The notes below the pieces were generated by a model. That model saw only the letters and a program-made list of their open reading frames with translations. It had not been told where the DNA came from and ran no database searches. Made by a program: the position numbers and the translations under genes. Positions 140-20,544 of a DNA stretch of 33,068 bases are shown one piece after another. Each line of letters begins with the position of its first letter. Within the stretch, counting starts at the first letter, position 1. Source of the stretch: Candidatus Amesbacteria bacterium (GTDB taxonomy: Bacteria > Patescibacteriota > Microgenomatia > CAZETR01 > Amesbacteraceae); the NCBI GenBank assembly GCA_016219445.1, contig JACRNA010000023.1, positions 1 to 33,068 on the forward strand, read 5' to 3'.

Positions 140-442
140 ATGTCAGGAAAGTTGCCACTTGAGCTGAAAAAATATTTCTGGGATGTGGATTTTGAGGGAC
201 TAAGTCTCAAAAATGATCGGTTATTTTTAATTAAGCGGATTTTGGACCGGGGGAATACCAATTCGGTTAAATGGTTGCGTACAGTTTGTACCGATACTGA
301 AATTATGACAGTACTTCGAAAAACTAGGGATTTATCATCTCAAACGGCAAATTTTTGGTCAGACGTTTTACAGTTAGATAAATCTCAAGTGGTATGTTTA
401 CAAAAGCCATACTCCCCGATACCTTACGGGCTATCCAGCTAG
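140..442 (+). CDS. DUF6922-like putative antitoxin partner
   Basis: LKKYFWDVDFEGLSLKNDRLFLIKRILDRGNT..KWL...LSSQTANFW pattern; overlaps the downstream AbiEii-like gene. Confidence 0.6.
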   Translation: MSGKLPLELKKYFWDVDFEGLSLKNDRLFLIKRILDRGNTNSVKWLRTVCTDTEIMTVLRKTRDLSSQTANFWSDVLQLDKSQVVCLQKPYSPIPYGLSS

Positions 443-1029
443 TGAGCAAGATTCCCATAATTCAAAATGCCTATTTGGCAGGAGGCACAGCCTTGACACT
501 TCAACTTGGACATAGAATTTCTATTGATTTAGATTTTTTTACGCCAGAGGCATTTGATGAAAAAATTCTCGCATCATCTCTGGGTGAATTTCCCCAGTTT
601 ATTCAAGAAGGTACAGCCTGGAGGACAGTCTGGGGAAAAGTGGGGGAAACTAAATTCAGTTTATTTTATTATAAATATCCATTGATTGGTGATATTCTGA
701 TGTTCGAAAATTTGTGCTTGGCTAGTAAGAAAGATATTGCAGCGATGAAAATTCATGCAGTCTCAGACAGGGGAACAAAGAGAGATTTTGTTGACCTGTA
801 TATGTTGGCACAAGAATTTGGAATGAATGAAATTCTCATGTTTTATGATGATAAATATGGAGATTTAGATGAAAAAGCTTATCACCTTATCCGGTCTTTG
901 GATTATTTTTCCGATGCCGAGGCAGAGCCTTCTGATAAAGCGCCAAAAATGCTTATAGATTTACCGTGGGAGAAAGTTAGAACTTATTTTGCCAACGAAT
1001 CTTTAAGATTAGCCCATAAATATTTATGA
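394..1029 (+). CDS. Nucleotidyltransferase AbiEii/AbiGii toxin family protein
   Basis: YLAGGTALTLQLGHRISIDLDFFTPEAF and DIAAMKIHAVSDRGTKRDFVDLY motifs. Confidence 0.85.
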   Translation: MFTKAILPDTLRAIQLVSKIPIIQNAYLAGGTALTLQLGHRISIDLDFFTPEAFDEKILASSLGEFPQFIQEGTAWRTVWGKVGETKFSLFYYKYPLIGDILMFENLCLASKKDIAAMKIHAVSDRGTKRDFVDLYMLAQEFGMNEILMFYDDKYGDLDEKAYHLIRSLDYFSDAEAEPSDKAPKMLIDLPWEKVRTYFANESLRLAHKYL

Positions 1030-1160: not shown

Positions 1161-1556
1161 ATGACTCAAAATGAAGTAGTAAAATTTTGGAAAGAGAGCT
1201 CAGATAAGGATTGGGAATTTTCAATGGAATTATATGAAAGCGGTAAACGATACGATTATGCTTTGTTTTTCGTTCATTTATCTCTTGAAAAGTTATTAAA
1301 GGCTTTACATTATCATCTCAAAAATGATCATCCATTGGCAATTCATGATCTGGTAGAATTGGCCAAAAGGACAGGTCAGGAGTTTTCTGAGGAGAACTTG
1401 GCTGATCTCAAAGAAATGACTTCGTACAATTTGTCGGCTCGCTACGATGATTATAAAAAAAATTTCTACAAAAAAGCGACAAAAGAATATACTGATATTT
1501 GGTTTCGTAAAGCAATTAAAATCCGAAAGTTATTACTTTCCTTTTTTGAATTATGA
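1161..1556 (+). CDS. HEPN domain protein (HEPN/MNT pair 1)
   Basis: ALFFVHLSLEKLLKALHYHL...LSARYDDY; ATGA overlap with the downstream nucleotidyltransferase. Confidence 0.8.
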   Translation: MTQNEVVKFWKESSDKDWEFSMELYESGKRYDYALFFVHLSLEKLLKALHYHLKNDHPLAIHDLVELAKRTGQEFSEENLADLKEMTSYNLSARYDDYKKNFYKKATKEYTDIWFRKAIKIRKLLLSFFEL

Positions 1557-1870
1557 GCCAGTCAGATGTAAAGATTATTCTAAAAAAATATCTAGAATTG
1601 GTAAATATGAAATATCCAGTTCAAAATGCTTATCTTTTTGGTTCATACGCCAAAGGGACTTGGCATGAGGGGAGTGATATAGATGTATGCGTGGTTTCAC
1701 CAGCATTTGGAAAAGATTATTTTGATGAGGAATCCCTTTTACGGAGAGACACGTTCAAAGTTGATTCACGGATCTCACCAGTCGCTTTTAATCCTGCAGA
1801 CTTTGCCGAAAAATACAATCTATTGGCTCACGAGATCAAAACATACGGTATACCTTTAATTTCACAATGA
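1553..1870 (+). CDS. MNT-type minimal nucleotidyltransferase (pair 1)
   Basis: AYLFGSYAKGTWHEGSDIDVCVV active-site pattern. Confidence 0.85.
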   Translation: MSQSDVKIILKKYLELVNMKYPVQNAYLFGSYAKGTWHEGSDIDVCVVSPAFGKDYFDEESLLRRDTFKVDSRISPVAFNPADFAEKYNLLAHEIKTYGIPLISQ

Positions 1871-1923
1871 ATGACCATCGTATGACCATATATGCCGCGT
1901 CAGCAAATGACGGGTGATTTCAT

Positions 1924-1971
1924 CCTATAGCTTTACTCACCCAATGTGTATTGCCCCCACTTGACCTATAG
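1924..1971 (+). repeat. Cassette repeat copy 1
   Basis: cctatagctttactcacccaatgtgtattgcccccacttgacctatag. Confidence 0.9.
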
Positions 1972-2004
1972 AAATAATTTGAAATTAAGTGTTAAAATAA
2001 AATC

Positions 2005-2391
2005 ATGACTCAAGTTGACGCAGTTAAAATTTGGCTCGAAGGTGCAGACGATGCTTGGGATACCGCACAAAAGTTGATGTTGCTCAAAAAGAATCACCAC
2101 GCTTTATTTTTCGCCCAGTTGTACTTAGAAAAGCTATTGAAAGCCTTAACTTATCATTTAAAAGACGATCACCCTTTATTTACTCACGATTTAGTATTGT
2201 TAGTGGCAAAGTTAGAGATTCAAATAAATCAGGCACAAATTGAAGATTTAAGAGAAATAAGTAAATTTAATGTTTCTGCGCGTTATGATGAAATAAAAAG
2301 AGGATTGTATAAAAAAGCTACTCCAGAATTTACAAAAATTTGGATCCAAAAAGTTAAAGATTTGGCGATTTATTTTCGAAAGATGTTATGA
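2005..2391 (+). CDS. HEPN domain protein (HEPN/MNT pair 2)
   Basis: ALFFAQLYLEKLLKALTYHLKDDHPLFTHDLV; homologous to 1161-1556. Confidence 0.8.
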   Translation: MTQVDAVKIWLEGADDAWDTAQKLMLLKKNHHALFFAQLYLEKLLKALTYHLKDDHPLFTHDLVLLVAKLEIQINQAQIEDLREISKFNVSARYDEIKRGLYKKATPEFTKIWIQKVKDLAIYFRKML

Positions 2392-2708
2392 AACAAGATT
2401 TAATTATAAAAAAAGCCCAACAATTTGTAAGATTGGTTAATCACAGAGGTATACCAGTTCAAAAGGCTTACTTATTTGGATCATACGCTACCAATCAAGC
2501 TGATGAGTCGAGTGATATTGATGTCTTGATAGTTTCTGATTTATTGGGGAACGATTTAATCGATGAAATGGTAATGTTAGACAAAATAGGGGATGAGATA
2601 GACGGTCGCATTGAACCACATCCTATGAGTTCTACAGACTTTGCCGAAAAATACAATCTATTGGCTCACGAGATCAAAACATACGGTATCCCTTTAATTT
2701 CACAATAA
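2388..2708 (+). CDS. MNT-type minimal nucleotidyltransferase (pair 2)
   Basis: AYLFGSYATNQADESSDIDVLIV; last 23 residues identical to pair 1. Confidence 0.85.
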   Translation: MKQDLIIKKAQQFVRLVNHRGIPVQKAYLFGSYATNQADESSDIDVLIVSDLLGNDLIDEMVMLDKIGDEIDGRIEPHPMSSTDFAEKYNLLAHEIKTYGIPLISQ

Positions 2709-2761
2709 ATGACCATCGTATGACCATATATGCCGCGTCAGCAAATGACGGGTGATTTCAT

Positions 2762-2808
2762 CCTATAGTCTTACTCACCCAATATGTATTGTCCCTCTTG
2801 ACCTATAG
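2762..2808 (+). repeat. Cassette repeat copy 2
   Basis: cctatagtcttactcacccaatatgtattgtccctcttgacctatag. Confidence 0.9.
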
Positions 2809-2838
2809 TGATATGTTACACTTAAATATTGATTCATT

Positions 2839-3024
2839 ATGGAAAGATTTGTTAAAACATTAGAAAAAGTTGAGTCACTGATCGTAACTTACAAATGTCT
2901 TGTTTCTGAGAGAATATTCAAAACAAAAGTTTTGTTGAACGATGATCCACCCGCCGAGGCTATATTGTGTGAATTACACGATAAAAAACACTCAGCGATT
3001 TCAGTAAATGTCGAAAGTGAATGA
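2839..3024 (+). CDS. Hypothetical 61-aa protein
   Basis: ORF just downstream of repeat copy 2; no recognised domain. Confidence 0.35.
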   Translation: MERFVKTLEKVESLIVTYKCLVSERIFKTKVLLNDDPPAEAILCELHDKKHSAISVNVESE

Positions 3025-3025
3025 A

Positions 3026-3802
3026 TTAGTAATTAATGCCGTAGATTTGACTAAAAATATTTAACCTTTTAATTCCATCAACAGCAGTTAGTCTCGGAGC
3101 AATGCTTCTCAAGTAATTTTCACCTACCCAGTCCACTTCGTGCCATTTTTGTTCAAAGATATTTTGGTCAAAGTTTGTTACCTCTATTTTAAATTTATTT
3201 GGCCCCCAGGCTTTGATAACATTAGTTGAGTGCGCGCATGTAATAATATTACGATGAGTGTCAATATCAAGAATTGAAATTAAATGATGTCCTCCGGCGA
3301 TACTTATAATATCCCCAGGCCTTGAATCATTGATTTTATCAATGGATCTAGCATTTGATTGATTAATAATATCTCTTCCATTAAGTTTCGTTACCCCAGT
3401 TAATTCTTTATTAGATGGTTTAGGCAAAGAAGTCTCAAAATTTAATGCTGTTATAGTTTCGATTGCGTATTGGGTGATATTGTAGACAAAACCGGAGCAA
3501 TCTATCCCCCCACCGATTTCAAAGATAAAATCTCTAATACGCTGTTGTGTGGAACATGATAAATCTAATCCAACTTCAGAAGCTTTTTGATAGACAAAAT
3601 CAACAATCTCCCAAGGCATTCGTTTTCCACCCTTTTGCACAGCCATATAATAAGGAGTTCCAATATATAAATCATCGTGATTCATAAAATATGGACATCG
3701 GACATCATGATTTGCTATGGAAAGATGTAAATAAGCATTAACAATAAAGTCAAACCGTTGTGATATTTGCGTGTTCATTTCCTTACTGTTCATATTTGCC
3801 AC
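3026..3802 (-). CDS. NlpC/P60-like cysteine peptidase/amidase
   Basis: GGGIDCSGFVYN (Cys) and RPGDIISIAGGHHLISI (His) motifs. Confidence 0.6.
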   Translation of the reverse strand: MANMNSKEMNTQISQRFDFIVNAYLHLSIANHDVRCPYFMNHDDLYIGTPYYMAVQKGGKRMPWEIVDFVYQKASEVGLDLSCSTQQRIRDFIFEIGGGIDCSGFVYNITQYAIETITALNFETSLPKPSNKELTGVTKLNGRDIINQSNARSIDKINDSRPGDIISIAGGHHLISILDIDTHRNIITCAHSTNVIKAWGPNKFKIEVTNFDQNIFEQKWHEVDWVGENYLRSIAPRLTAVDGIKRLNIFSQIYGINY

Positions 3803-4530
3803 CTGAATCTATATATCCCATCTCCTTGACTAGAATCAAAGTATATATGGCCGTATTTTTTGTATTCCTTAGTTTTTTCTAGCCAACATTGGTGATCCAG
3901 ACCGAGATTTGGATCAATAATTTTTATTTTTCCCAAATGTACCCCGTCTAATTGAGAGGTTAGAGAACTAGAATGGACATAAGTTAATATTGATCGGCTT
4001 ACTACAGTAATGAAAAATATGTGTTTTCCTCTATTTAATCTAATTAAATCTCCGGGTTTAGCGTGAGCAACTTTTATAGGACGTGCATTTTTGATATTTG
4101 TTAAGAATTCTGCATTACATCTCCAAGCATTTCTCCAGGAGGGTAATTTTGAATCGGGAAAGAATTTTTTGGCCAGACTAAATCCATACTTTTCTATGTT
4201 TAACCTATCTGACAGATGATAAGCCAATCCAGAACAATCAATGCCGATTCTATTATTTTTCATAAATACAGAGAGAGCTGTTTTTGTTGAGTTGATTACA
4301 TCAAGTCCATGTTTTTTTGCGCAAAGTTTGATAGCATGAATTATTTGTTTGGGAGTGCCTTTTCCAGAATATGGCCCCTTAATATTTTTTGGTAAATCAT
4401 TCATCCAATAGGGACAATTGATAAGACAGTTTCCAATTTTAAGATACAGATAATTATCCAAGAGTTTTTGTGTTTTTTGGGGTAATACAGTTAAATTTGT
4501 AAGCTTTTTCATTTTGTGTAATTTTATCAC
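3790..4530 (-). CDS. NlpC/P60-like cysteine peptidase/amidase (paralog)
   Basis: IGIDCSGLAYHLSDR and KPGDLIRLNRGKHIFFI; shared architecture with 3026-3802. Confidence 0.6.
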   Translation of the reverse strand: MIKLHKMKKLTNLTVLPQKTQKLLDNYLYLKIGNCLINCPYWMNDLPKNIKGPYSGKGTPKQIIHAIKLCAKKHGLDVINSTKTALSVFMKNNRIGIDCSGLAYHLSDRLNIEKYGFSLAKKFFPDSKLPSWRNAWRCNAEFLTNIKNARPIKVAHAKPGDLIRLNRGKHIFFITVVSRSILTYVHSSSLTSQLDGVHLGKIKIIDPNLGLDHQCWLEKTKEYKKYGHIYFDSSQGDGIYRFRWQI

Positions 4531-4548
4531 ATTTCCACAAATTTAAGA

Positions 4549-4595
4549 CCTATAGTCATACTCACCCAATATGTATTGCCCCACTAGACTCAAAG
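4549..4595 (+). repeat. Cassette repeat copy 3 (3' half diverged)
   Basis: cctatagtcatactcacccaatatgtattgccccactagactcaaag. Confidence 0.85.
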
Positions 4596-4670
4596 AATTA
4601 AAATGGCACAAAATGCTTAACAAACCTGAATATAGGTTACTTTTGGAATTGTCGAAAGAAGGTGAATTAC

Positions 4671-4811
4671 ATGATAAGTAAAGCCAAAGAAGTTATTATT
4701 GATATAATAGTTAGGGAATCAAGTCCAAAAGCAGAAAAGCTAAAACCCTACGAAACGGGTAATATAAAGAGACGTGTATTGGGAGATTTATTTCTTTTTA
4801 GAGTAGATTAG
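4671..4811 (+). CDS. Small ORF (46 aa), possible RiPP precursor or leader-like peptide
   Basis: ATG preceded by SD-like AAGGTG; MISKAKEVIIDIIVRESSPKAEKLKPYETGNIKRRVLGDLFLFRVD; ends 12 nt before the RRE gene. Absent from the supplied ORF track because of its size. Confidence 0.4.
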   Translation: MISKAKEVIIDIIVRESSPKAEKLKPYETGNIKRRVLGDLFLFRVD

Positions 4812-4823
4812 ACAGAGTAACTT

Positions 4824-5114
4824 ATGCGACTAAATACGAGTAAAAGTCACGCAAGTGTTTTGTTTTGTCCGTTAATTGACAAGGTAAATGATTACAACAC
4901 CATTGTTTATAATGTCAATTCAAATACAAACCATAAAGTTAATAGTTTTGGGTATTTCATTTTAGAAATTGTTGAAAATAATCCTGGAATTTCTCTTGAT
5001 GATTTAGTAGATAAATATAGTCGCAAGGTTGGGAAACCAATATGGAAAATTAGAAATCAAGTCGAAAGTTTTGTCAAGGAGATGATGCGAGAAAATATCG
5101 TGCTGATTGATTAA
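4824..5114 (+). CDS. PqqD-like RiPP recognition element protein (lasso B1/E-like)
   Basis: YNVNSNTNHKVNSFGYFILEIVENNPGISLDDLVDKYS....FVKEMMRENIV; directly upstream of an asparagine-synthase-like gene. Confidence 0.65.
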   Translation: MRLNTSKSHASVLFCPLIDKVNDYNTIVYNVNSNTNHKVNSFGYFILEIVENNPGISLDDLVDKYSRKVGKPIWKIRNQVESFVKEMMRENIVLID

Positions 5115-5117
5115 ATT

Positions 5118-6752
5118 ATGACTCAAGAGCTCAACAATTATTTATTCTTGAATCTTTCTAAAGATTTATTAATTACAGCCAAATCGACTTCTCAAATAAT
5201 CCCTCATATTAAGATTCCAAACAGACAATTCCCCAGACCCTTTTTCGTATATGACGATAAATTCATTTGTGCTGGATATTTTTTGTCTTTTGAGGAAGAG
5301 ATATTAAATGATCAGATATTTGAGATGTGTATAAATGGGCGTTGGAAGGAATTGGCAAATAAAATTGCCGATTTTATTATTATCTTTATTGATTGCACTA
5401 GTCACAAGCTTAATATTCTGACTAGTCATTCAGGAAAGTTCCCTTGTTTTTATTCTATTGAGAATAATCAAATAATTATATCCACGAGCTTTCATTTGGT
5501 GGACGAAAATCTTAAAAATAGAACTTTAGATATTGGAGAAGCTGTGGAACTTTTAACTTGGAGCCAAGCAGTATATCCGAGAGAAGAGACACTCTACAAA
5601 CAGATTAGACAGTTACCGCTTGCGACATTATTGACTATTGATAATAATTTTGCTGTTACCACGGAACCATTACTTGTGATTGAAGAAATATTGGAGAATG
5701 GAAGATCGTCGTTATTTTTAGACGAAAAAGATTTTATTGATGAATTTGTACGTACAATAAAAGTAGTTATGAATAATTACTTGAAAACAATTGAAGGTGT
5801 CGAATTTTCCACAGATCTGTCATCTGGCTTTGACAGTAGTCTAGTGACTTATTGGCTGCAAAAATTAACTCACCGGCATTTTTCCTGTCACTCAATGTTT
5901 TCACCACTTATTTATGAAGATTCTGATCCAGAAATTATTAATAAATTTTCAAAGATGCATGGTTTAAAGACCAAGTTCATTGATATAACAGAACAATATC
6001 CATTTACAAATCTTGATAAGATAAATAATGCAAAACATGACTTTTATGTCACCGATTATGCATTAGAAAAAGTATCGCATGCACTTAATTATATTTCCGA
6101 TTCAGGAAAAAAAGAAGTCGCTCTATTTACTGGGCATGGAGGCGATGAACTATTTTATTCTTTTGCCTTAGAAAATACTTTAAGATTTGGAGTTCAACAG
6201 ACATACTTTGATCTGTCAGATTATTCGAAAACCTGGCTAAGTTCAGTATTGACCACAAAAGGTATAGAAATTCTCATGGACAAAAAGAGATTTTTACCAA
6301 AAAGAAATTATCCTTCTCCATCAGCCTATTCAGTGTCAGTTTTGGGCCAAATGTATTTTCCTTTATTTTGGGAATCCGGTGTATGGCCGCTTACCCCCCT
6401 AGATGATCCCAGATTAATAAATGTTTTCAGGAGAATGCCAAAAAGTTTGCAAAGCAAAAAGAATGCTAAGCTAAAATTATGTTCTCTAATGCAAGATGTA
6501 TTTGTCAAAGAACAGTTTGTGCCCAAAGGGGGACCAGATAAACTACGGCATAGATTTTTAATAGAAAAAAAAGATTTGGTCATTACCGTCTTAAAGAAAT
6601 CTATCTTAGGTAATCTGGGTCTTGTAAGAAATTTAGAATTAATTGAAAAACTGGAAAGAAAAGATTCGACTCTTTTTACTGATCTCGCCATCTCCATATC
6701 TCTGCAAGCCTTAATTCAATTGGAAATTTTCCTTCAAAAATCAGACCTATAG
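5118..6752 (+). CDS. Asparagine-synthase-like ATP-dependent amide ligase (lasso-cyclase-like)
   Basis: PPi-loop-like LSSGFDSS, GHGGDELF motif, N-terminal GATase-II-like region without Cys at position 2. Confidence 0.75.
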   Translation: MTQELNNYLFLNLSKDLLITAKSTSQIIPHIKIPNRQFPRPFFVYDDKFICAGYFLSFEEEILNDQIFEMCINGRWKELANKIADFIIIFIDCTSHKLNILTSHSGKFPCFYSIENNQIIISTSFHLVDENLKNRTLDIGEAVELLTWSQAVYPREETLYKQIRQLPLATLLTIDNNFAVTTEPLLVIEEILENGRSSLFLDEKDFIDEFVRTIKVVMNNYLKTIEGVEFSTDLSSGFDSSLVTYWLQKLTHRHFSCHSMFSPLIYEDSDPEIINKFSKMHGLKTKFIDITEQYPFTNLDKINNAKHDFYVTDYALEKVSHALNYISDSGKKEVALFTGHGGDELFYSFALENTLRFGVQQTYFDLSDYSKTWLSSVLTTKGIEILMDKKRFLPKRNYPSPSAYSVSVLGQMYFPLFWESGVWPLTPLDDPRLINVFRRMPKSLQSKKNAKLKLCSLMQDVFVKEQFVPKGGPDKLRHRFLIEKKDLVITVLKKSILGNLGLVRNLELIEKLERKDSTLFTDLAISISLQALIQLEIFLQKSDL

Positions 6753-6792
6753 TCCTACTCACCCAATATGTATTGCCCCACTTGACCTATAG
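6746..6792 (+). repeat. Cassette repeat copy 4 (contains the stop codon of the upstream gene)
   Basis: cctatagtcctactcacccaatatgtattgccccacttgacctatag. Confidence 0.9.
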
Positions 6793-6831
6793 TTTATAAT
6801 GGATCTACTCTGAAAAAAATACTTTAATGTT

Positions 6832-7557
6832 ATGAAACAAGAAGCAATTTTGGTACATGGTTGGGATCCAAGATTTTATAATAATCAAATCAAAGAACCT
6901 ATATCAACAGGAATGGCTTGGTCACACAGGCCTGAGTTGATAAAGAGATTAAGGGAGAAATATAATATTTGTTGCTATAATCTACCTGGATTTTGTGGGA
7001 TTAAGGAGCCTAACAAAGATAAATTTTCCGTGGAAGATTTTGTCCAAGACTTTTTTGAATGGAAAGAAAAAAAACACAAAGATGCAAAATTGATGATTGG
7101 TTATTCTTTCGGGGGAGCAATTCTTCTTAGTTATAAGGCAAAATACCACGATTCTACTCCAACCATCTTGATTTCCCCAGCCATATTTAGGAGTGAATCA
7201 AATCGGTCAGAATTGGCAAAACGCCTGAAGCCATTTATTCCAAGCTATTTTGCAGATTACTTTAGACACGTTTATCAATATTTTGTAAGTGAATACTATC
7301 GACGAGGTTCTCCTTTTTTGCGCTCAACTTACAATTCAATCGCTAGAGCGGATCTTCGTCCCTTGTTGAGTAAAGTGGATGTAAATAAACTGTTACTAAT
7401 ATATGGTAAAAATGACGAAGCTACGCCATGGAACTTAGTTAAAGACACGATAAGAGATCATAAGATTAATTGCCATCTTGTCTCAGACGGTGGCCATAGA
7501 ATTGGTCAGACTCATCCAGGCGAGATAATAAAAGCCATTAATGAGTTTTGCGAATAA
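6832..7557 (+). CDS. Alpha/beta hydrolase
   Basis: LVHGWD, GYSFGG nucleophile elbow, IYGKNDEATP, DGGHRIG. Confidence 0.75.
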   Translation: MKQEAILVHGWDPRFYNNQIKEPISTGMAWSHRPELIKRLREKYNICCYNLPGFCGIKEPNKDKFSVEDFVQDFFEWKEKKHKDAKLMIGYSFGGAILLSYKAKYHDSTPTILISPAIFRSESNRSELAKRLKPFIPSYFADYFRHVYQYFVSEYYRRGSPFLRSTYNSIARADLRPLLSKVDVNKLLLIYGKNDEATPWNLVKDTIRDHKINCHLVSDGGHRIGQTHPGEIIKAINEFCE

Positions 7558-8321
7558 GGAAATAGTTGGTCTTGCGGACGAATTGATAATAGAGAACCAT
7601 GTTAGTGGAGATCACCTCTATGATTGGATCGATATCGTCGGAATTACTCAGCGTCCCGAGAAACTCAAGAAATCTTTATATTTTACTACTCACTCAGATG
7701 GAACCGACGGATGGCACAATGCCTTTGATAGACGGCCAATGGCTCAAAATGTGGCTAGAGATAAAGGGTGGCATTTGGCAGTTGAACCTGGAGTGAATGT
7801 TGATAATCATGAACATTTCATTGTTTCCTCATTGATTGGATTGTCTGAAAGACTGTATGAATTTGCAAGAACAAGAAGCAACCCCTATGTTATTGGTGTC
7901 ACTGGTTCTGTAGGAAAAACCACTACCGTGGCATTTCTGGAACATTTGATTCGAGAATCTGGGGTAGGAGTAACTCGTTTTTGGTCTAAGAGGCTGACTC
8001 CTTTACTCGTTCAGTGTCATTATATTAATAGAGTTGATACGAATACTCCATTTATTGTTATGGAATACAGTGCATATGGTAAAGATCATGTTAGTGAATT
8101 AGCTAAAGTGTTACCCCCTAACTTAGCATTTTTTACCAATATTTATGAAATGCATGTGGGCCAGGACTTATTCAAAAGTGAACGAGAAGTTTGTAGACGA
8201 GGAAAAATTTAAAGGGCTGCTAGAAAAAGGAAAAAGCAGTTATTTGGTCTATCACAAAGGGTTGTCTTTACGACAACCAAATTTTGATCCGGCAGAATAT
8301 CTTAAAAATCGCTGGGGTTAA
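7541..8321 (+). pseudogene. Mur-ligase-like protein, frameshifted and truncated
   Basis: P-loop VIGVTGSVGKTTTVAFLEH; ORF stops at 8212, but another frame continues KFVDEEKFKGLLEKGKSSYLVYHKGLSLRQPNFDPAEYLKNRWG* to 8321. Confidence 0.6.
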
Positions 8322-8326
8322 CTCAT

Positions 8327-8373
8327 CCTATAGTCCTACTCACCCAATGTGTATTGTCCCACTTGACCTATAG
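8327..8373 (+). repeat. Cassette repeat copy 5
   Basis: cctatagtcctactcacccaatgtgtattgtcccacttgacctatag. Confidence 0.9.
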
Positions 8374-8612
8374 TGATATGACGCATGACCAAAAGTGGGG
8401 AATTTTTATGACCTGCCAATGGTTATGTTACAAGAAACAAAAAGTTATGATGTTGGTATTGTCGTCACTGGATTTATCGCAATGACTGGTACCCCTTCAA
8501 AAGCCCTTTGATACGATACTTCTCTACAACAATAATCAACTTGGGCTCGCCGTGTGGGACGATTATGTTTAGAGGGGAGCTTGGCGATAAAGGCAACGTC
8601 GTTGCAGAGGGA

Positions 8613-9077
8613 ATGAAGCCGTTGGCTGGAGATGAAATAACCGCAGCATTCTCAAAAAGAGATAGAAAAGTCCTCAAACTCCCAAGAAACATAACTGAAA
8701 TTGAGTGGGAGAAAATAACCTACTTATCTTGGCTCCATCCCGATGGAAGTAAATGGTTTGTGGTATATAACCCATTAGATGAATTACATGGGTTAGTTTT
8801 AGAAAAAATGGAAACTACTGGGTCGTCCGCAAAACAATGTTCTTGGTGTGCTACCACAAATGCCGGGGATAGAATAGCTCAGTTTGTAGTCAGGCATGCT
8901 TTAAATAGAAGTATAACCATGGGCACATATGTATGTTCAAGTCTAGATTGTGATGACTATATTCGAGGCAGAAAATTTCCAAGCATTGCAACGTTTTCAT
9001 CCTATCCAACATTAGAAAAAAGGGTCAAAAATCTCAGAGATAACTTAGATAATTTCTTTATTAGAGCTCTTTTTTAG
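8613..9077 (+). CDS. FBP_C-type treble-clef zinc-finger protein (EF-G-binding-like)
   Basis: KQCSWCATTN..DRIAQFVVRHALNRSITMGTYVCSSLDCDDYIRG; N-terminus KRDRKVLKLP..EIEWEKITYLSW. Confidence 0.7.
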   Translation: MKPLAGDEITAAFSKRDRKVLKLPRNITEIEWEKITYLSWLHPDGSKWFVVYNPLDELHGLVLEKMETTGSSAKQCSWCATTNAGDRIAQFVVRHALNRSITMGTYVCSSLDCDDYIRGRKFPSIATFSSYPTLEKRVKNLRDNLDNFFIRALF

Positions 9078-9087
9078 TCTTAAAGAT

Positions 9088-10242
9088 ATGTTAGATAATA
9101 GTTCTTACATCAAAACAGCTACGGCATCAGTTCCGTTATTTTATCCTCGGTACAAAATGAAACCTGGTGATAAAATTGATGGCTATATAACAAATAAAAA
9201 ATTGATTGAGGGATTACTGAATTGTGAATATATATTTTTGACTTTGTATTGGAAACCAGTAGGAGATTCTTTACTTTTTCTTTCTGTTGCCCAAGCTTGT
9301 TTTGAATATTTACAATTAACGAGAGATACTCAGCCCAAATGGATAGTTGATGATCAGTATCAGGAATTAATAAGACATATCGGTTTTTTGAAAGATGCAG
9401 ATATGGTTTTCAAAGCTTTAGACAGATTTAAATCTATGATAAAAAATAATCAAAAGGCAGTTTTAATTACGGACGATGATCCATTTAAAATGGCCAATGT
9501 GCCACCAATATTTAATTCGGAAGAATATGTTTATCCAAAATTTGTTGAAAAAGATTCAAGCATAATAATTAAAGAATATTCTTCCCGCCCAGCACGATAT
9601 TTTTTAACCTTTGAACGCGAGGTGGGCAAAAGATTGATTTCAGATCCAAATAACTCTTTGCCAAATTTTGTTTTTGACAGTCAAAAGACGAATAGTGGTA
9701 AGATTATGTGCATAGTAAGTCAGGCGAGCCGGCCAGAAAAGAAATTCGGCACAACCAGATTCATAAAATTAGCCAAAAGACTTTTTGATTCAAAGCTCGT
9801 AGATATAGTTTATTTACTAGCTAATTCAAAGGAAGAATCACCCTCAGAATGGATTTTAGTAAGAAGACTTTTAGAGAAATATAAAGACTGGTTAATACTT
9901 GTTGAGGACAAAAAGTTTGAAGAAACGGCTGAATTATTTAGTAAAAGCCAGATTGTTCTAGGAAACGATACTGGTTTTACACATTTAGCAGCAATGAGTG
10001 TAAACAATATGGGGAGGCCTAAAGTATTTATACTATATTCACGACATGATTATAGTAAATGGAGTACCGGTAAAGATAATGTATATCCGATTGTTACAAA
10101 ATTATCTGAATATTTGAAAAATAATAATATGTCTATTCAAAGAGACGGGATTGATTTGTCAAAGTGGGGTTCTGAAGAGTGGTCATATTCAATTCCTATT
10201 AATAGAGTAGAAAATATGATCAAAAAATATGCACAATATTGA
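9088..10242 (+). CDS. Glycosyltransferase family 9-like (heptosyltransferase-like)
   Basis: KFGTTRFIKLAKRL and VLGNDTGFTHLAAM. Confidence 0.65.
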   Translation: MLDNSSYIKTATASVPLFYPRYKMKPGDKIDGYITNKKLIEGLLNCEYIFLTLYWKPVGDSLLFLSVAQACFEYLQLTRDTQPKWIVDDQYQELIRHIGFLKDADMVFKALDRFKSMIKNNQKAVLITDDDPFKMANVPPIFNSEEYVYPKFVEKDSSIIIKEYSSRPARYFLTFEREVGKRLISDPNNSLPNFVFDSQKTNSGKIMCIVSQASRPEKKFGTTRFIKLAKRLFDSKLVDIVYLLANSKEESPSEWILVRRLLEKYKDWLILVEDKKFEETAELFSKSQIVLGNDTGFTHLAAMSVNNMGRPKVFILYSRHDYSKWSTGKDNVYPIVTKLSEYLKNNNMSIQRDGIDLSKWGSEEWSYSIPINRVENMIKKYAQY

Positions 10243-11170
10243 TTTAACTATTTTAGTTCCAGCATACAATGAGGAAAAATCAATCTTAAAATTATTAAAC
10301 AGCATCAACGCTGCCAATCTGAATAAGATAAATACAGAGATAATTGTTCTTATTAATGGGTCAACAGACAATACCACCCAAGTTGTCAACAACTTTAAAA
10401 AAAAAAAAAAAAACTCCAACCTATCATGGGTTATATTTGAAACAAACGAAAGAGGAAAAACAAAAGCCCTGAACCTAGGATTGTCTATGTCTAAGTCCGA
10501 GATCATTATTAACATAGACGCTGATTGTAAAATTAAGAAAGAATCATTAATAATGATCTTCAACAAACTAAAGATTTGTGAGCAGCTTTTATTGGTTGGT
10601 GGTTTAGATAGACCAGATTTTAGATGTAGTGATAAACAAAGCTTGTTGTACCAATTTCAGGTTGTGCATCAGATATATCGAGAGGTTAGAGGTAGGGTAT
10701 TACCGGTTGGTCGGTTAATGGGATATAAACGTTCAAGTTTTGATAAATTTCCAAAATATTTACATTCAGAGGATACGTGGTTAGCTCTTGATCTAGCCAA
10801 GAGACATGGATGGAAGTCTGTAAAAATCCTGACGGATGCCGTGGTTAATTTTTCACCTGCGCTAAATTGGTTAGACTATATTAAGCAGGAATCCAGATTT
10901 GAATGTGGACTTCCACAGATACTAGATCAATTTCCAGAATTAGAAAATATTTATAACCAACGCAGAATCAATGTTGAGCAAAAGTCTAAAGACAAGATAG
11001 AATCGGAAATTTTTGAAAAAATGGATATGTTTAAGATACCAAGAGAAAGATGGACTCAGATGAATGATATAATTGATTCAGTTATTATTGAAAATGCTCT
11101 AATAATGAACAAACAGCTAATATCAAAAGATGGTAATTGGGATCCAACGAGATCAACTAAGAATGAATGA
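10229..11170 (+). CDS. Glycosyltransferase family 2
   Basis: LTILVPAYNEEKSILKLLNSI...NGSTDNT...NIDADCKI; contains an A17 tract. Confidence 0.85.
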   Translation: MHNIDLTILVPAYNEEKSILKLLNSINAANLNKINTEIIVLINGSTDNTTQVVNNFKKKKKNSNLSWVIFETNERGKTKALNLGLSMSKSEIIINIDADCKIKKESLIMIFNKLKICEQLLLVGGLDRPDFRCSDKQSLLYQFQVVHQIYREVRGRVLPVGRLMGYKRSSFDKFPKYLHSEDTWLALDLAKRHGWKSVKILTDAVVNFSPALNWLDYIKQESRFECGLPQILDQFPELENIYNQRRINVEQKSKDKIESEIFEKMDMFKIPRERWTQMNDIIDSVIIENALIMNKQLISKDGNWDPTRSTKNE

Positions 11171-11804
11171 TAAATTTAAAAATTTGCATAAAAAACACAC
11201 AAAGGGCTTGTATCCAGATAAATTTTTGGATTTAATCTTTACTCATTCAGACATAGTAAGACAGATTGCGCTAAAAATTGCAGATAACTTATCGCAAAAT
11301 AAAATTGTGGTAAATATGGATCTTGTGGAATCTGGGTCAATGTTCCATGATATTGGAGTATATCTATGTTTTGACGATGAATTTAATCCAGATGCTTCAT
11401 TATCAAAATATCTTTGTCATGGACACGAAGGGTACAAGTTACTAAAAGAAGAAGGGTATGATGAACAAGTTGCCCGATTTGCCCTGACACATACAGGAAC
11501 CGGAATTACCAAAGAAGATATAAAAAGAGAAAACATGCCATTTGAACCACGAGATTTTATACCTGTAACTTTAGAAGAGGAAATTGTCTGTTATGCTGAT
11601 AAATTTCATACAAAATGGCCGTCTTTTAATACATTTGAAGAAGCAAAGGCTAGACTTGAAAGATTTGACCCATCAAAGGGAATAATTATGGATAGGTTTA
11701 AAATGAAGTTTGGTTCTCCGAATTTAAGCGATCTTCAGCAAGAATATAGAGAATGGCATAAAAATATGGAAACATTCTTTAATTCCCTACCTAAAGCCAA
11801 GTGA
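11163..11804 (+). CDS. HD-domain phosphohydrolase
   Basis: HSDIVRQIALKIADNL, SGSMFHDIGVY, HGHEGYKLLKEEGYDEQVARFALTHTG. Confidence 0.75.
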   Translation: MNDKFKNLHKKHTKGLYPDKFLDLIFTHSDIVRQIALKIADNLSQNKIVVNMDLVESGSMFHDIGVYLCFDDEFNPDASLSKYLCHGHEGYKLLKEEGYDEQVARFALTHTGTGITKEDIKRENMPFEPRDFIPVTLEEEIVCYADKFHTKWPSFNTFEEAKARLERFDPSKGIIMDRFKMKFGSPNLSDLQQEYREWHKNMETFFNSLPKAK

Positions 11805-11806
11805 TT

Positions 11807-12925
11807 ATGTCAGGGGAGCAATTTCCTGATATTTTGTACAGAGAGGTACCAAGGAATAGGGTCTCCGCCCTAGGCAAAAGCAATAGTGGATATGAAGCTG
11901 ATAGCCTGGCTATTATCAGTGATAATCTCTGGGGACGATTTGGCGTTGTAAGAAAATGGACACAATATGTGACAGGCTCGGCGGATGTAATGATTATTCC
12001 ATTGGGAAGTAATGTATCTCAACTAACAGAATTGGAAGCTCCAAGATTGGGTAGATTTCTTCATTTATGTGGATCGCTCGTGGCCGAAATGCACCGGGAA
12101 TGCGGTAATGGATTTCCTGTTGTGGCCATAAATCAGCAGCCGGAATGCGTGAACATTCCCGATAAATACGCAGCTGACGGAACTGAACTCAAAGTGCAGA
12201 CGATAAACGAAGTTCATGCTCATTTATATATAGAAAACGGTAAATACAATCATACAATTCCGCCATCAAAACTAAAAGCGGAAGATAGGTACAGTTTTAT
12301 TGATCCTCTTGGGATTATTGCTGGTGGGCTTATCTATAAGGAAGCCTGTGACACATTGGAAAGAATCCCAGGATTTGTAAAACTGCATCTATTTGATGAT
12401 AAATATCCACTAGGTGTTAATTTTGAATTAACTGGAGGAATAAGTGAAAATCTGGACAAAACGGAATTGTGTGCGTTTGTAGCCGACACCCAATCGTGGA
12501 TATTCGGTATTTATAGGTCTTTAGAAAACAAACTGAGACAAACAACCGATAGAACTGATGTCGTTGATTGGTTTTTGAAAGAACATCATATGGATAAAAA
12601 AAGTGCTGACTATATATCTAAAATAATTAGTATTATTAGGGATCATTCTGTGGTTGAAAAGAAACATCACAGATTTGTTCCCGGTCCAGCGATGACATGG
12701 ATTATATATGAAAGAGGTGGTAATACATTTGTTAATTTAGCGCCCAGAATACTTTCACGAGGAAACGCCAGTGAATCATTCGGCGTGTGGGTGGAGCCCG
12801 TGGATAATATTGATGGAAATGGAGAAATGGTTTCTGACCAGAAGAAATTCTGGGATAGTATAATTACAAAATTATCTAAGACTTTAGATATTACAAAAGG
12901 TCCTACATATGATAACCCTATATAA
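11807..12925 (+). CDS. Conserved hypothetical protein (possible HIT/GalT-like HAHLYI segment)
   Basis: Long ORF overlapping both neighbours; EVHAHLYIENGK is only weakly suggestive. Confidence 0.5.
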   Translation: MSGEQFPDILYREVPRNRVSALGKSNSGYEADSLAIISDNLWGRFGVVRKWTQYVTGSADVMIIPLGSNVSQLTELEAPRLGRFLHLCGSLVAEMHRECGNGFPVVAINQQPECVNIPDKYAADGTELKVQTINEVHAHLYIENGKYNHTIPPSKLKAEDRYSFIDPLGIIAGGLIYKEACDTLERIPGFVKLHLFDDKYPLGVNFELTGGISENLDKTELCAFVADTQSWIFGIYRSLENKLRQTTDRTDVVDWFLKEHHMDKKSADYISKIISIIRDHSVVEKKHHRFVPGPAMTWIIYERGGNTFVNLAPRILSRGNASESFGVWVEPVDNIDGNGEMVSDQKKFWDSIITKLSKTLDITKGPTYDNPI

Positions 12926-14555
12926 ATATTTTATTCATGATAATCAAGAGCAGAGGCTATTATTCAAAAGACTTATTGACATATGTTTTGATTTCTGGAA
13001 TGGTAAAACGCGTAACGGTAAGGTGTTAATATACAAATCACCCGATTGGTTGAAAAATAAGTTGTCTTCTTTGAATCCAAAACGAGGAATAAAAGAGGAC
13101 AAAATATTGGACATACTGAGAGACATCGGAAAGTATTCAATCTCCCAATCAGATGTAAACTATTTAGCCTTCCCTGATTCAAGTAATTCCCTAGCAGGAA
13201 TGATGGCCGAAATATATACGAAATTCTTGAATCAAAATATGATCGCTTTTAGTAGAAGTGCTCCATACGCAACATTTATTGAAATTCAACTTATAGAGTG
13301 GTTGAGGCAATTAATCGGATATGATTTTAAAAATATTAAGGATGTAAATTCCCTTGCAGAGGTGGGAGGAATGTGTACTACTGGAGGGCATATGTCAAAT
13401 CATATATCCATCCTGGCTGCGCTTAATCATAAATATCCACAAATAAAAGAGAATGGTCTAAATAATCTTGGGGTTAGCCCAAAAATAATCTTGGCCGGAA
13501 AAATCAGCCATTACTCATATTCATCGGCAATGCATCATTTGGGTTTGGGAAATAACAACATAATTTCGACCGAATCGACTACAGCATTTACTACTGATTT
13601 AAATAGTTTGAGAAACGAGCTAAACAAACACAGGGGCAGCGATGATGTATTTATGGTGGTGGCAGTCGCCGGAAATAGCAGAACCTGTGGAATTGACGAT
13701 ATAGAGGCAATTTCAAATATTTGTAAAGAGTTTGGAGTTTGGCTTCATGTCGATGCCTGTCACGGCGGTAGTTTAATATTTTCAGATAAACTTAAAAATA
13801 AACATCTTAAAAGAATAGAGACGGCGGATTCAATTTCCATTGATCCCCATAAGGGAATGTTTGTGACATATCCTTTAAGTTATGTCTTGTTTAAAAAGAG
13901 AGATTCACTCGTTCCGTTTACAAGATATGAGAGCCAGGTTCGAAGTGGAGAAGCTTGGGATTTGGGTTATACAAGTCCATTTTATGGTTCTAGGGGCTTT
14001 GAGTCTCTGAAGCTTTGGACCATGATTAGATCTATGGGCTTTGATGGTTTGAGAAAGGCTGTTGAAAAGAGAGAGGGTGACGCTATATTTGTTCAGAAAT
14101 ATCTTACCGAATCAGAACATTTTATTTTGTTTCATGAAATGACATTCTATAGACTTGCGTTCGTATTCTATCCAAACGATGTAAAAAACATTGTGGATAA
14201 CAGAAAAATAAGTCTAGAACAAAAAAAGAAAATAAGGCTGTGTATAGATAATTATACCCACAAAATAAACGATGAACTATACAAAGAAGGCACTATTTGT
14301 CTAGATGAGTTCAAGCTACACGATATTGCTAATATTACTAATTTAGAATCCGGTAACGACAGATTTTATGTAATGAGTGTGACCACCGGAAATCCAACGT
14401 ATTCAAAAAAGAGTTTAAAAAGATCTTTGGACGTTTTAATAACGAAGTCCAAGAATTATAGTGGAAGCTTCAGGGCCGATATTATAAAGATATTAAACTC
14501 AGAAAGTTATAGTGTTGAAGTTTCTGAAGGATATGGCCCCGCCAGTTGGAAGTAG
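12909..14555 (+). CDS. PLP-dependent group II decarboxylase-like protein
   Basis: LHVDACHGGSLIF....ADSISIDPHKGMFVTYP (PLP lysine motif). Confidence 0.8.
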   Translation: MITLYKYFIHDNQEQRLLFKRLIDICFDFWNGKTRNGKVLIYKSPDWLKNKLSSLNPKRGIKEDKILDILRDIGKYSISQSDVNYLAFPDSSNSLAGMMAEIYTKFLNQNMIAFSRSAPYATFIEIQLIEWLRQLIGYDFKNIKDVNSLAEVGGMCTTGGHMSNHISILAALNHKYPQIKENGLNNLGVSPKIILAGKISHYSYSSAMHHLGLGNNNIISTESTTAFTTDLNSLRNELNKHRGSDDVFMVVAVAGNSRTCGIDDIEAISNICKEFGVWLHVDACHGGSLIFSDKLKNKHLKRIETADSISIDPHKGMFVTYPLSYVLFKKRDSLVPFTRYESQVRSGEAWDLGYTSPFYGSRGFESLKLWTMIRSMGFDGLRKAVEKREGDAIFVQKYLTESEHFILFHEMTFYRLAFVFYPNDVKNIVDNRKISLEQKKKIRLCIDNYTHKINDELYKEGTICLDEFKLHDIANITNLESGNDRFYVMSVTTGNPTYSKKSLKRSLDVLITKSKNYSGSFRADIIKILNSESYSVEVSEGYGPASWK

Positions 14556-15828
14556 TATTTTGGTTTCTCCGACTTTTGCCAAATGGTACAGTGATATTTT
14601 TATGTCTCTAAACATCAAGGGTGAAAATTATTATCATCCGCACCAACTACTAACAAACTTTCTGGCATTGAGCAAAAGTAAGAGCCTTTGTGGATTTAAA
14701 ATAAAATTTACTAAAAATGTATTCAAGATAACCAATTTGAATATCTTGTATACAAACGATGATAGTTTAGCTAGTTATTTAGATTCAGAAAAAATTAATT
14801 CGTTTGATAATTATTTTGAGTCTTTGGCTCCCGTAAGCAGTGGAAGTTTGTTTCTAGATAAAGGAACTTCGCCAAGGCTAATCGTTATAAATCAAAGCTT
14901 GTCGTATGTCGTGGTTGGAGTACATGGGTTTGAGGAATACCTGACAAACTATATCAAAATAAAAAACTGTTTGTCGACCGAACTTACTATCGGAGTCATA
15001 GGAAGGATTGGGGCGATTAAATCTAATAATGGTGGTTACTTCATTTCTGAGTATAGGGGTTTCGATTTTGAGTCTGAAATTATAGAAAACAATAGACATG
15101 AGCTAAAAGATAAACTTTTAGAAGCGACTTCAAGACTAAATAAATATTTTGAGGAAAACAGCCTATTTGTTAGAAATTTGGCTCCAAGAAATATGATTAA
15201 TGGAGATGGAAAGATCTATTTAATTGATTTTGATCATGTATATGACCAACGAAAAATTAAGCCTTTAACCCTGATTACCCACATGTTTTCTAGAAGATTG
15301 TGGTATTCGGATGTATTTGAAAAAGATGTTATCAATAAATTATTTCCAATAAAACTGGATAGTGGCATTGAGACGTATTCAAAATGTGACGGTTTTGAGG
15401 TTAAATACTTTAATTCTTCCAAGGTGAAGCTAAAAGAAAAGATTCGCTTATATGATTTAGTAGAAAAATTTGAGTCAAAAAACGTTTTTAAGGGTTGTGA
15501 TATTTATGGTCATCAACTAGGAAGATTTATTACTGACTTTTGGGGGAATGATTTGGAGATCAAACTATATAAATATCTCCATGATAATTTAGAAAAACTA
15601 GACCAGGTACGAGCGGTGTTATACTTAGTGTCAAAGATTGACCAAGAGTTATTATTAAGGAAAAAGTACGGCCTGTCTTTGATATCGCCAATCCTCACAC
15701 CGAAAGTATTTGAGTGGATAAAAAACCAAAATGGGGAGTTTCAAGTTTGTTGTGATCTTTTCACATATCTATCAGAGACATCAAGGTTCGAAGCCAAATA
15801 CAAACACATTTCAGAATTATTAATTTGA
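14533..15828 (+). CDS. Kinase-fold-like protein with degenerate catalytic loop
   Basis: VRNLAPRNMINGDGKIYLIDFDHVYD resembles HxDLxxxN...IDFD of APH/protein-kinase folds, with Asn where Asp is expected. Confidence 0.45.
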   Translation: MAPPVGSSILVSPTFAKWYSDIFMSLNIKGENYYHPHQLLTNFLALSKSKSLCGFKIKFTKNVFKITNLNILYTNDDSLASYLDSEKINSFDNYFESLAPVSSGSLFLDKGTSPRLIVINQSLSYVVVGVHGFEEYLTNYIKIKNCLSTELTIGVIGRIGAIKSNNGGYFISEYRGFDFESEIIENNRHELKDKLLEATSRLNKYFEENSLFVRNLAPRNMINGDGKIYLIDFDHVYDQRKIKPLTLITHMFSRRLWYSDVFEKDVINKLFPIKLDSGIETYSKCDGFEVKYFNSSKVKLKEKIRLYDLVEKFESKNVFKGCDIYGHQLGRFITDFWGNDLEIKLYKYLHDNLEKLDQVRAVLYLVSKIDQELLLRKKYGLSLISPILTPKVFEWIKNQNGEFQVCCDLFTYLSETSRFEAKYKHISELLI

Positions 15829-15838
15829 TAATACGAAT

Positions 15839-16088
15839 ATGCCCGAATGTTCAGAAATTATCCAGTCTGGGTCATTTTTGCTCGCTAGATGGGACGATTA
15901 TCGAAAGTCGGATTGGACTGAACTAATTGATTCACCTGGCTTATTTTTATAACAAACTAAACAACTTTTGTCTACTTTAAGGTGCTCAAGGAGTCTGGAA
16001 TGTTAACCAAAAAGACGAATTTTTATCTCACTGGGGAAAGCAAACATATCAAGAGGGTTTAGATTTGCCTTTACCTTGGAACAAGTAA
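15839..16088 (+). pseudogene. Decayed coding remnant ending 1 nt before repeat copy 6
   Basis: MPECSEIIQSGSFLLARWDDYRKSDWTELIDSPGLFL* then, in another segment, QGVWNVNQKDEFLSHWGKQTYQEGLDLPLPWNK*. Confidence 0.35.
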
Positions 16089-16089
16089 G

Positions 16090-16136
16090 CCTATAGTCCT
16101 ACTCACCCAATGTGTATTGTCCCACTTGACCTATAG
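16090..16136 (+). repeat. Cassette repeat copy 6
   Basis: cctatagtcctactcacccaatgtgtattgtcccacttgacctatag. Confidence 0.9.
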
Positions 16137-16149
16137 TGATATGATGCAT

Positions 16150-16174
16150 GTAACGATGATTACATCATTGTTAC
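16150..16174. repeat. Hairpin GTAACGATGA-TTACA-TCATTGTTAC
   Basis: 10-bp stem (one G:U) with a 5-nt loop. Confidence 0.6.
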
Positions 16175-16209
16175 TTAATTTTATTTTATTGTCCAGGTAG
16201 GACACTTTT

Positions 16210-16235
16210 TCCCCGCCAAAAGTGGGGATTTTTTA
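16210..16235 (+). terminator. Terminator/attenuator-like hairpin directly before an ATG
   Basis: tCCCCGCcaaaaGTGGGGatttttta: 6-bp stem then T-run; ATG at 16237. Confidence 0.6.
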
Positions 16236-16236
16236 T

Positions 16237-17442
16237 ATGGCATCACATGCTAATCGGTTTGAAAATCCTTATTATTTTATTTCTGCGGGGTTAATAGTTG
16301 TTGCAATTGGGTATCTTGGGTATACTGAGATTATTCTTTTAATATCACATAGTGTTTCCGTAGCTCCAAATCAACTCAAATTAGACACAGTTATTATAGG
16401 CGAAATTGGTAAAGATCCACAACAATTTAACCCCAGCACGATCACTCCTACTGTCACGGCGACAGCCACACTTGAACCAACATTCACTGCCACTTCCACC
16501 CCCACTCTCACCCTAACCCCTACTGAAAATCCACAGCAAACATGGTTGAATAAATATAAAGTATTGAAAACGACTGGAAATTTAACTCTAGGGGGCGATA
16601 AGACTGGTAATAGAATTACTGCAGAAAATTTACAAATACTCGAAAAAAATGATCGAAAATATGCTTACTCCCCAGCTAAACCAATAAATCAATTTGAATT
16701 AAAGGGAGAGTTAGAGGGGGTTGCCTCTTACCAGAAAATCAATACCACAGAGAAATATGTTTTACAGACCTTAATTCCTGTGGATTCTGACGGAAATCTC
16801 TCGTTTCAATTTTTAGATAAAGACAAAAATTTGAGCATCATGAAGTTTAAATATGATCCAACTTCTAAAAATGGTCTTGGTTCTGTAGTTACCAATAAGC
16901 CAATTCCACTAGGCCAAGAGTGGAGAGCTTTGCCGGCTGGAGTGATTGCTAGGTTTGATGAAGGGGTAATGAAGTTTTATGTCGGCGACAAGCTTTATGT
17001 TCCCACTGCTACTTCCACCCCCACCCCCCAATCCACCAAAATTGCCGTAGTCGAAGCCCCCAAAACCCCCGTTCCTCAATTTGAAACCTTTAAGGGTACT
17101 GCTATGGAGGAGTTTGCAAAAGCCCATGGAATTCAATGTCCCGTGGGAACTACGGTTGAAGTAGTTGGAAATCAATATTGGCTTTATAGTTTTGGTAATG
17201 AGTGTACATTTGGGAATGTACCGTTTATTGGAAAAAATTTGGCTGGAGTGGGGATTCTCATACCAGGTGAAAAAGGAGGTTGGACTAACTATGATCCAGG
17301 AGTATCAGGTTGGGATGCCAAAGATATAACAGATAAAGCTGGGATATTGGGTTTTGAGGTTGTGGGGTATAAATATTCTGTTTATCAGAGTGGCGAGAAG
17401 GCATACTTAGGCTTTGTTTTGGCTAAACCAAAAGGCAAATAA
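16237..17442 (+). CDS. Membrane-anchored surface protein with Thr/Pro-rich linkers
   Basis: N-terminal TM (YYFISAGLIVVAIGYLGYTEIILLI) then TPTVTATATLEPTFTATSTPTLTLTPT. Confidence 0.65.
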   Translation: MASHANRFENPYYFISAGLIVVAIGYLGYTEIILLISHSVSVAPNQLKLDTVIIGEIGKDPQQFNPSTITPTVTATATLEPTFTATSTPTLTLTPTENPQQTWLNKYKVLKTTGNLTLGGDKTGNRITAENLQILEKNDRKYAYSPAKPINQFELKGELEGVASYQKINTTEKYVLQTLIPVDSDGNLSFQFLDKDKNLSIMKFKYDPTSKNGLGSVVTNKPIPLGQEWRALPAGVIARFDEGVMKFYVGDKLYVPTATSTPTPQSTKIAVVEAPKTPVPQFETFKGTAMEEFAKAHGIQCPVGTTVEVVGNQYWLYSFGNECTFGNVPFIGKNLAGVGILIPGEKGGWTNYDPGVSGWDAKDITDKAGILGFEVVGYKYSVYQSGEKAYLGFVLAKPKGK

Positions 17443-17481
17443 TCATTGATTTGTAAAAGTTATTTTGTTATGCTGTAATTA

Positions 17482-20176: not shown

Positions 20177-20181
20177 TAATT

Positions 20182-20544
20182 ATGTACGAAAATAAAAAAA
20201 ACTGGCTAATCTTGATTTTAATTATTGGTGTGATGTTTGGTTTGGGATTTTGGAAGGCGTCAGGTTATGCCAGTTTCAAACGTATCTATAACTTAGCCAA
20301 ATTTAGACTGGACATGGAGGTAGATTATGCAGTATTAAAATCTTATGATAAAGGTAAGTATATTTTTGTTACCAAAAAAGGTGCTGAGAAAATAGTAGAA
20401 GATACTCGGGGGGTTTTTGTATCAACGATTAATCCTTCAGGGGGATATCTTAAAGCTGATTGGAGTCTGGTTAAGCCAAGATCAAATGTCCAACTAGCTA
20501 TTGAAAAGACTACGGGGAAGATTGTGGCAGTGTTGGTATTATAA
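20182..20544 (+). CDS. Hypothetical single-TM protein
   Basis: N-terminal TM NWLILILIIGVMFGLGFW. Confidence 0.5.
   Translation: MYENKKNWLILILIIGVMFGLGFWKASGYASFKRIYNLAKFRLDMEVDYAVLKSYDKGKYIFVTKKGAEKIVEDTRGVFVSTINPSGGYLKADWSLVKPRSNVQLAIEKTTGKIVAVLVL

Follow-up and report, generated by a model that had tools for sequence, protein, structure and literature searches.

How does a very small bacterial genome come to hold a row of functionally unrelated genes separated by one short sequence that always points the same way? We addressed this question in a metagenome-assembled genome (MAG) of Candidatus Amesbacteria (Microgenomates), here G000 (810 kb in 47 contigs, completeness about 95%). The stretch of DNA analysed, referred to below as the window, is one complete contig of this genome, C33 (33,068 bp), and it carries six copies of a 47-bp repeat, R (CCTATAGTCCTACTCACCCAATRTGTATTGYCCCACTTGACCTATAG), all on the plus strand (Table 1). 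A preliminary description of this DNA had given the positions and the strand of all six copies correctly, and had proposed that R may be a new cassette-assembly or recombination-hotspot element recalling integrons. Patescibacteria genomes are tiny and no integron was found in G000, yet the locus is a large hotspot of toxin-antitoxin, ribosomally synthesized and post-translationally modified peptide (RiPP), glycosylation and surface genes. We favour another reading, to which we assign a probability of about 0.55: R is a promoter/operator module, duplicated from a surface-protein operon, that heads each unit and also provides homology for unit exchange. If R is both a promoter and an exchange border, this would explain how a tiny genome can acquire a unit and express it at once.

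A 19-bp core of R (ACTCACCCAATRTGTATTG) has six exact matches in the window against an expected 0.02, and six matches were reached in none of 100 shuffles. Allowing up to three mismatches on both strands of the window revealed nothing beyond the six. A seventh copy is located on contig C13 (positions 710–765), 0.7 kb from the contig end, and a genome search found no other convincing copy in G000 beyond C33 and C13. Two copies, 2.2 kb apart, are present in G001, a MAG of the same genus (Candidatus Amesbacteria bacterium; R-bearing sister contig JAUXUE010000101.1). No comparable match was found in other members of the class (98 genomes), and an exact-pattern scan of GTDB r220 and IMG/VR returned R only on the sister contig of G001.

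The edges of R are sharp: mean pairwise identity is 0.83–0.93 in the outer 10-bp blocks inside the repeat and drops to 0.37/0.45 over the 10 bp that adjoin it on the outside. The same heptamer, CCTATAG, forms both borders. R also lies very close to the genes that it follows. The copies at 8327 and 16090 start within 2–6 bp of the preceding gene, and the upstream cyclase gene (5118–6752) takes its stop codon from the copy at 6746, where GACCTATAG reads D-L-stop; the genes that precede the C13 copy and the right copy of G001 likewise have their stop codons inside R. The earlier statement that R never falls inside a gene body is thus correct in general but not at 6746.

R has a promoter-like layout. 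In eight of nine copies a –35-like TTGYCC is followed after 16–17 bp by a TATAAT-like hexamer, which falls 2–3 bp outside R; this –10-like hexamer reads AATAAT at 1924 and TATGAC, a weak form, at 8327. None of 50,000 random draws reached the score summed over seven copies, a P-value that is somewhat optimistic because the –35 was picked from two candidates. The other candidate, TTGACC at the right end of R, was rejected since its –10 scores worse. The orientation of this promoter-like layout matches that of the downstream open reading frame (ORF) except at a minus-strand gene pair, which is preceded by a 61-aa plus-strand ORF. R resembles sigma-70-type promoters with an upstream element in hexamer spacing, in its strand relation to the next ORF and in the class-wide use of CCTATAG, but it differs from them in being a near-identical 47-bp module repeated in one hotspot, with the –10 outside the repeat.

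Throughout the class, CCTATAG recurs as a promoter element of genes that are unrelated to cassettes. The architecture CCTATAGTTGA-N18-21-TATAAT (CCTATAG, TTGA, an 18–21 nt spacer, TATAAT) was found in 96 of 384 class genomes, whereas the reversed control gave 1. Of 20 readable loci of this kind, 15 have the start codon 6–13 nt past the –10, as in leaderless genes, and in the genome G004 TTGACCTATAGT-N11-TAAAAT-N7-8-ATG stands at three consecutive genes. The 10-mer GACCTATAGT is confined to R copies in G000 (8/8), whereas elsewhere in the class it lies on the same strand and shortly before a start codon at 21 of 36 sites (mechanical test; 27% for random positions). Only the full promoter architecture is enriched class-wide; the bare 10-mer is not. 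CCTATAGT was rejected as a core particular to cassettes, since in the class it also precedes ordinary genes, ProB and aspartokinase among them. Examples of CCTATAG promoters are found at L130:1503, L131:1503 and L094:9362/9991/10315, and some of these promoters carry a second CCTGTAG or CTTATAG directly before the –10. Positioned upstream of the –35 and often leaderless, CCTATAG constitutes a testable promoter element for a class with little or no genetics.

Taken alone, the promoter architecture and the class-wide CCTATAG would also fit a regulon promoter without any role in exchange, with one transcription factor acting on all units and 47 bp held under selection. The occurrence of CCTATAGT ahead of unrelated neighbouring genes on contig C4 of G004 points the same way. 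However, R is much longer, and its copies are more alike, than shared promoter elements need; R is absent from the remaining genome; and the homology edge of a differently diverged unit falls at R (see below). We consider this explanation unlikely.

The region between the MurE-M23 block and the surface-protein operon is an accessory hotspot. Contig C24 of G000 ends with MurE, M23/LysM, NUDIX and NDT genes followed by an insertion sequence (IS) terminus. Because this terminus matches the inverted terminus near the start of the window, we place C24 and C33 next to each other, as on contig C93 of G001. Protein identity between G000 and G001 is 94% for both MurE and M23 but 33% for NUDIX, 49% for NDT and 28% for DUF6922; hence the variable region begins right after M23. 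Genes 3' of the surface operon are syntenic with G001 contig C94. Other genomes of the family differ in what follows M23: G002 contains AbiEii-HEPN-MNT and then directly the surface operon, in G008 an RRE+cyclase unit and further genes precede a surface operon, and G010, G011, G007, G009, G013 and G004 contain none of these units. The HEPN-MNT pair of G002 is flanked by promoters carrying CCTGTAGT, and in G008 CCTATAGT sits behind the cyclase unit, ahead of the surface operon.

Comparison with G001 revealed that units have turned over and that a homology edge coincides with R. The orthologous RRE+cyclase unit of G001 lies between the two R copies of that genome but has different neighbours: to its left is a cupin-like gene, and to its right a gene for an HTH protein. 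At the DNA level the unit is homologous as far as the right-hand border of R (L014 5356–5359, window 6793–6796) and no further. Its proteins are 58–60% identical between the two genomes, versus 94% for MurE and M23, and the unit has therefore diverged out of step with the backbone. For the other proteins encoded between R copies no convincing counterpart was found in the 510 kb of G001 covered by this gene-content comparison, except for HEPN2, whose homolog (90% over 40 aa) is placed behind a pilin operon on contig C22. Since nearly all G000 units are missing from the searched part of G001 and the homology of the shared unit ends at the edge of R, we conclude that R marks unit borders. The tie between R and variable genes drawn in the preliminary description is thereby borne out: units were gained or lost, with a homology edge at R, and we observed neither a genome-wide spread of copies unconnected to variable genes nor a fixed gene order free of breakpoints at R.

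Turnover at R, together with its sharp, identical ends and single orientation, would also suit an integron-like or att-type site beside which units integrate singly, the recombinase being encoded elsewhere (XerC/D-like on C16 or C23, serine-type on C13) or lost. G000 has four recombinase genes, two of them on the R-bearing C13. Moreover, in G354 and G331 direct repeats of a sequence unrelated to R, all on one strand, border the lasso-type RRE+cyclase units (L043 6915–6990, 9149–9238 and 13203–13255; L045 7668–7869 and 10990–11064), and the G354 unit is on the strand opposite to its repeats, which a pure promoter reading leaves unexplained. In G331 the flanking repeat corresponds to the 3'-terminal part of a transporter-like gene. 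Repeats near the cyclases of G160 and G202/G223 were set aside as low-complexity sequence or gene 3' ends.

The anatomy of R does not follow suit, and we regard an att-type site as unlikely. Reading of nine R copies revealed no attC cores (RYYYAAC/GTTRRRY), and neither DNA strand of R folds into a stable attC-like hairpin (z between –0.74 and 0.12), in agreement with the earlier remark that R is not a recognisable attC. The five G-type copies interrupt the dyad at the centre of R (CAATA-TG-TATTG), and the copy G1b departs from it further still. Comparison with Xer/dif sites (28 bp, 11-bp arms around a 6-bp centre) gives a less clear picture: the symmetry of R is limited to CAA-N6-TTG and is lost in G1b. 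No recombinase was found beside any R copy. The preliminary description had likewise noted the lack of an integrase in the window, which says little alone because the window is a single complete contig. The tyrosine recombinases of G000 (PF00589, n = 2) are on C16 and C23. The C23 enzyme fits XerC/XerD best and scores 54 bits versus the integron-integrase cut-off of 265, and no IntI-type integrase was found in this approximately 95% complete genome, in which the C16 enzyme has no class assignment. The large serine recombinases/resolvases (n = 2; C13:34006 and C13:40934) are 33–41 kb from the only R on that contig. No R-like site occurs near any of the four genes, which speaks against R as the att site of these enzymes. 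Finally, the end motif of R is a promoter element genome- and class-wide. With no attC anatomy, no recombinase beside the copies and a promoter element at its ends, the proposal that R is a new cassette-assembly recombination site is not supported. The integron comparison fails its defining tests, while the arrangement itself is real and unusual.

Two of the recombinase-bearing contigs have features of their own. On C13, a 102-bp perfect inverted repeat (33832–33933 and 35401–35502) brackets a large serine recombinase gene; its right arm is inside the 3' end of that gene, and a partial third copy is found at 29139–29237. This may be an invertible element or an assembly artefact. On C23, a VirB4-like 1086-aa ORF (L022:1803–5063) near the XerC/D-like gene seemingly contains an intein-like insertion.

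Known systems share some traits with this locus. Integron cassette arrays are alike in having unrelated genes between same-orientation repeats in a variable region, but R has neither attC cores nor a hairpin, no integron integrase was found, R has promoter features, and one unit is a 7.7-kb multi-gene block. In vpma/vsa-type loci, as in M. agalactiae, recombination sites are in the 5' region of each gene, xer1 is adjacent, and the promoter is unique (PMC2268961). The present locus resembles these Mycoplasma loci in having a conserved sequence ahead of each unit near promoters, a surface-gene region and a small genome; in contrast to their one-family genes, units here are unrelated, each R copy is promoter-like, the recombinase is not adjacent, and there is one direction. 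SCC-type islands (ccr) also have direct repeats around tandem units, and Ccr-related recombinases are present in G000, but its serine recombinases lie outside the array, on C13, with no adjacent R-like site. For Patescibacteria, hundreds of genomic islands and transfers have been reported across 125 genomes (PMC12455944); a word search of that paper turned up neither direct repeats nor integrons nor hotspots. A literature search for cassettes and promoters of the candidate phyla radiation (CPR) gave nothing on point.

One could also view R as a mobile element, small and non-autonomous, that has repeatedly been inserted, CCTATAG being either its duplicated target or its ends. CCTATAG at both ends and the HEPN1 upstream region, which is similar but lacks R, are consistent with this. 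However, R departs from transposons and miniature inverted-repeat transposable elements (MITEs) in being restricted to one locus plus C13, in a single orientation: all copies but one are in a single 14-kb region, none is found elsewhere in the genome, and, apart from the palindrome CTATAG, R has no inverted repeat at its termini. We judge such an origin highly improbable.

In the promoter/operator reading that we prefer, the CCTATAG ends would serve as the upstream element, TTGYCC between them as the –35-like hexamer, and sequence 2–3 bp past R would give the –10. A copy of R would stand at the head of each accessory unit. As the copies are near-identical and run in the same direction, RecA-type exchange between them is possible; homologous recombination between copies or with incoming DNA could add, drop or replace whole units with no dedicated integrase, and an incoming unit would land behind a promoter. 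We infer that transcription starts from R, that R is a site of regulation and that the exchange runs by homologous recombination. A regulatory module doubling as homology needs fewer assumptions than a new recombination site. Several observations weigh against this account. The CCTATAG borders are as sharp as a site-specific junction, and at about 47 bp the repeats are short for RecA. TTGYCC, chosen after viewing both candidates, is no strong –35 consensus, and the minus-strand pair, its 61-aa ORF apart, is transcribed against R. HEPN2 homology with G001 starts at window 1990, 18 bp to the right of R, and a 178-bp MNT-M-R duplication extends into coding sequence. R is carried by just two genomes, both MAGs, and one of these assemblies is highly fragmented.

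The likely source of R is the surface-operon promoter, because its copy and the C13 copy share a structured leader (L013:760–863 for C13; folding z –4.8 for the surface operon and –5.2 for C13). We infer that R likely descends from this promoter. Terminator-ended leaders also precede surface genes in G002 and G005 and the RRE+cyclase unit in G008. Rfam has no family for the leader, which may act in attenuation or as a riboregulator of unknown type.

A wider generalization, which we hold to be doubtful, is a Microgenomates cassette system that uses a portable promoter/operator repeat as its joining site. Genes would arrive expressed and module-flanked, by a non-adjacent Xer- or serine-type recombinase or by competence-linked recombination, and other genera would use other repeats at equivalent hotspots.

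Table 1. Features of the window around the R copies (positions in the window).
Feature	Position	Strand	Remark
IS terminus	75–102		matches, inverted, end of contig C24
DUF6922 gene	140–442	+	left border; positional counterpart in G001:C93
AbiEii nucleotidyltransferase (toxin-like)	394–1029	+	
HEPN1/MNT1 pair	1161–1870	+	left of first R
MNT 3' end + motif M + R	1794–1971	+	95% identical to 2632–2808
R copy 1	1924–1971	+	48 bp, others 47 bp
Unit R1-R2: HEPN2/MNT2	2005–2708	+	
R copy 2	2762–2808	+	
Unit R2-R3: 61-aa ORF (+) and minus-strand protein pair	2839–4530		
R copy 3	4549–4595	+	right end degenerate (GACTCAAAG)
Unit R3-R4: putative precursor ORF 4671–4811, PqqD/RRE 4824–5114, Asn-synthetase-like cyclase 5118–6752	4671–6752	+	shared with G001
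R copy 4	6746–6792	+	cyclase stop codon within first 7 bp
Unit R4-R5: alpha/beta hydrolase, truncated Mur ligase	6832–8320	+	
R copy 5	8327–8373	+	
Unit R5-R6: FBP_C domain, GT9, GT2, HD, unknown, PLP decarboxylase, unknown, gene remnant	8508–16089	+	
R copy 6	16090–16136	+	upstream of surface operon
Structured leader	16138–16238	+	three hairpins, last = intrinsic terminator immediately before surface-operon start codon
Surface-protein operon	16222–20544	+	right border of hotspot

The units between R copies are functionally unrelated, as first described. The first HEPN/MNT pair precedes the first R. The minus-strand pair had been labelled NlpC/P60; it has no family match in Pfam, NCBIfam or PHROG. 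In the tandem HEPN/MNT pairs (1553–1870 and 2388–2708) the 178-bp 3' ends are 95% identical while the 5' parts have diverged, a pattern that suggests gene conversion, or else recombination, within the MNT gene. A second repeat, M (TGACCATCGTATGACCATATATGCCGCG), is found behind toxin-antitoxin and cupin-like genes (1087–1118, 1868–1899, 2706–2737 and L014:3091–3131), and its other matches in G000, G001 and G002 are short and weak. The ORFs ahead of the RRE gene, 46 aa in the window (4671–4811) and 44 aa in G001 (L014:3238–3372), share SPKAEKLKP/APKAELLKP, and look like lasso-type RiPP precursors; within the RRE+cyclase unit we identified no B2 protease. Outside the hotspot, a minus-strand 403-aa protein (22359–23570) matches the PADLOC candidate defence family PDC-S01 (E-value 5e–141).

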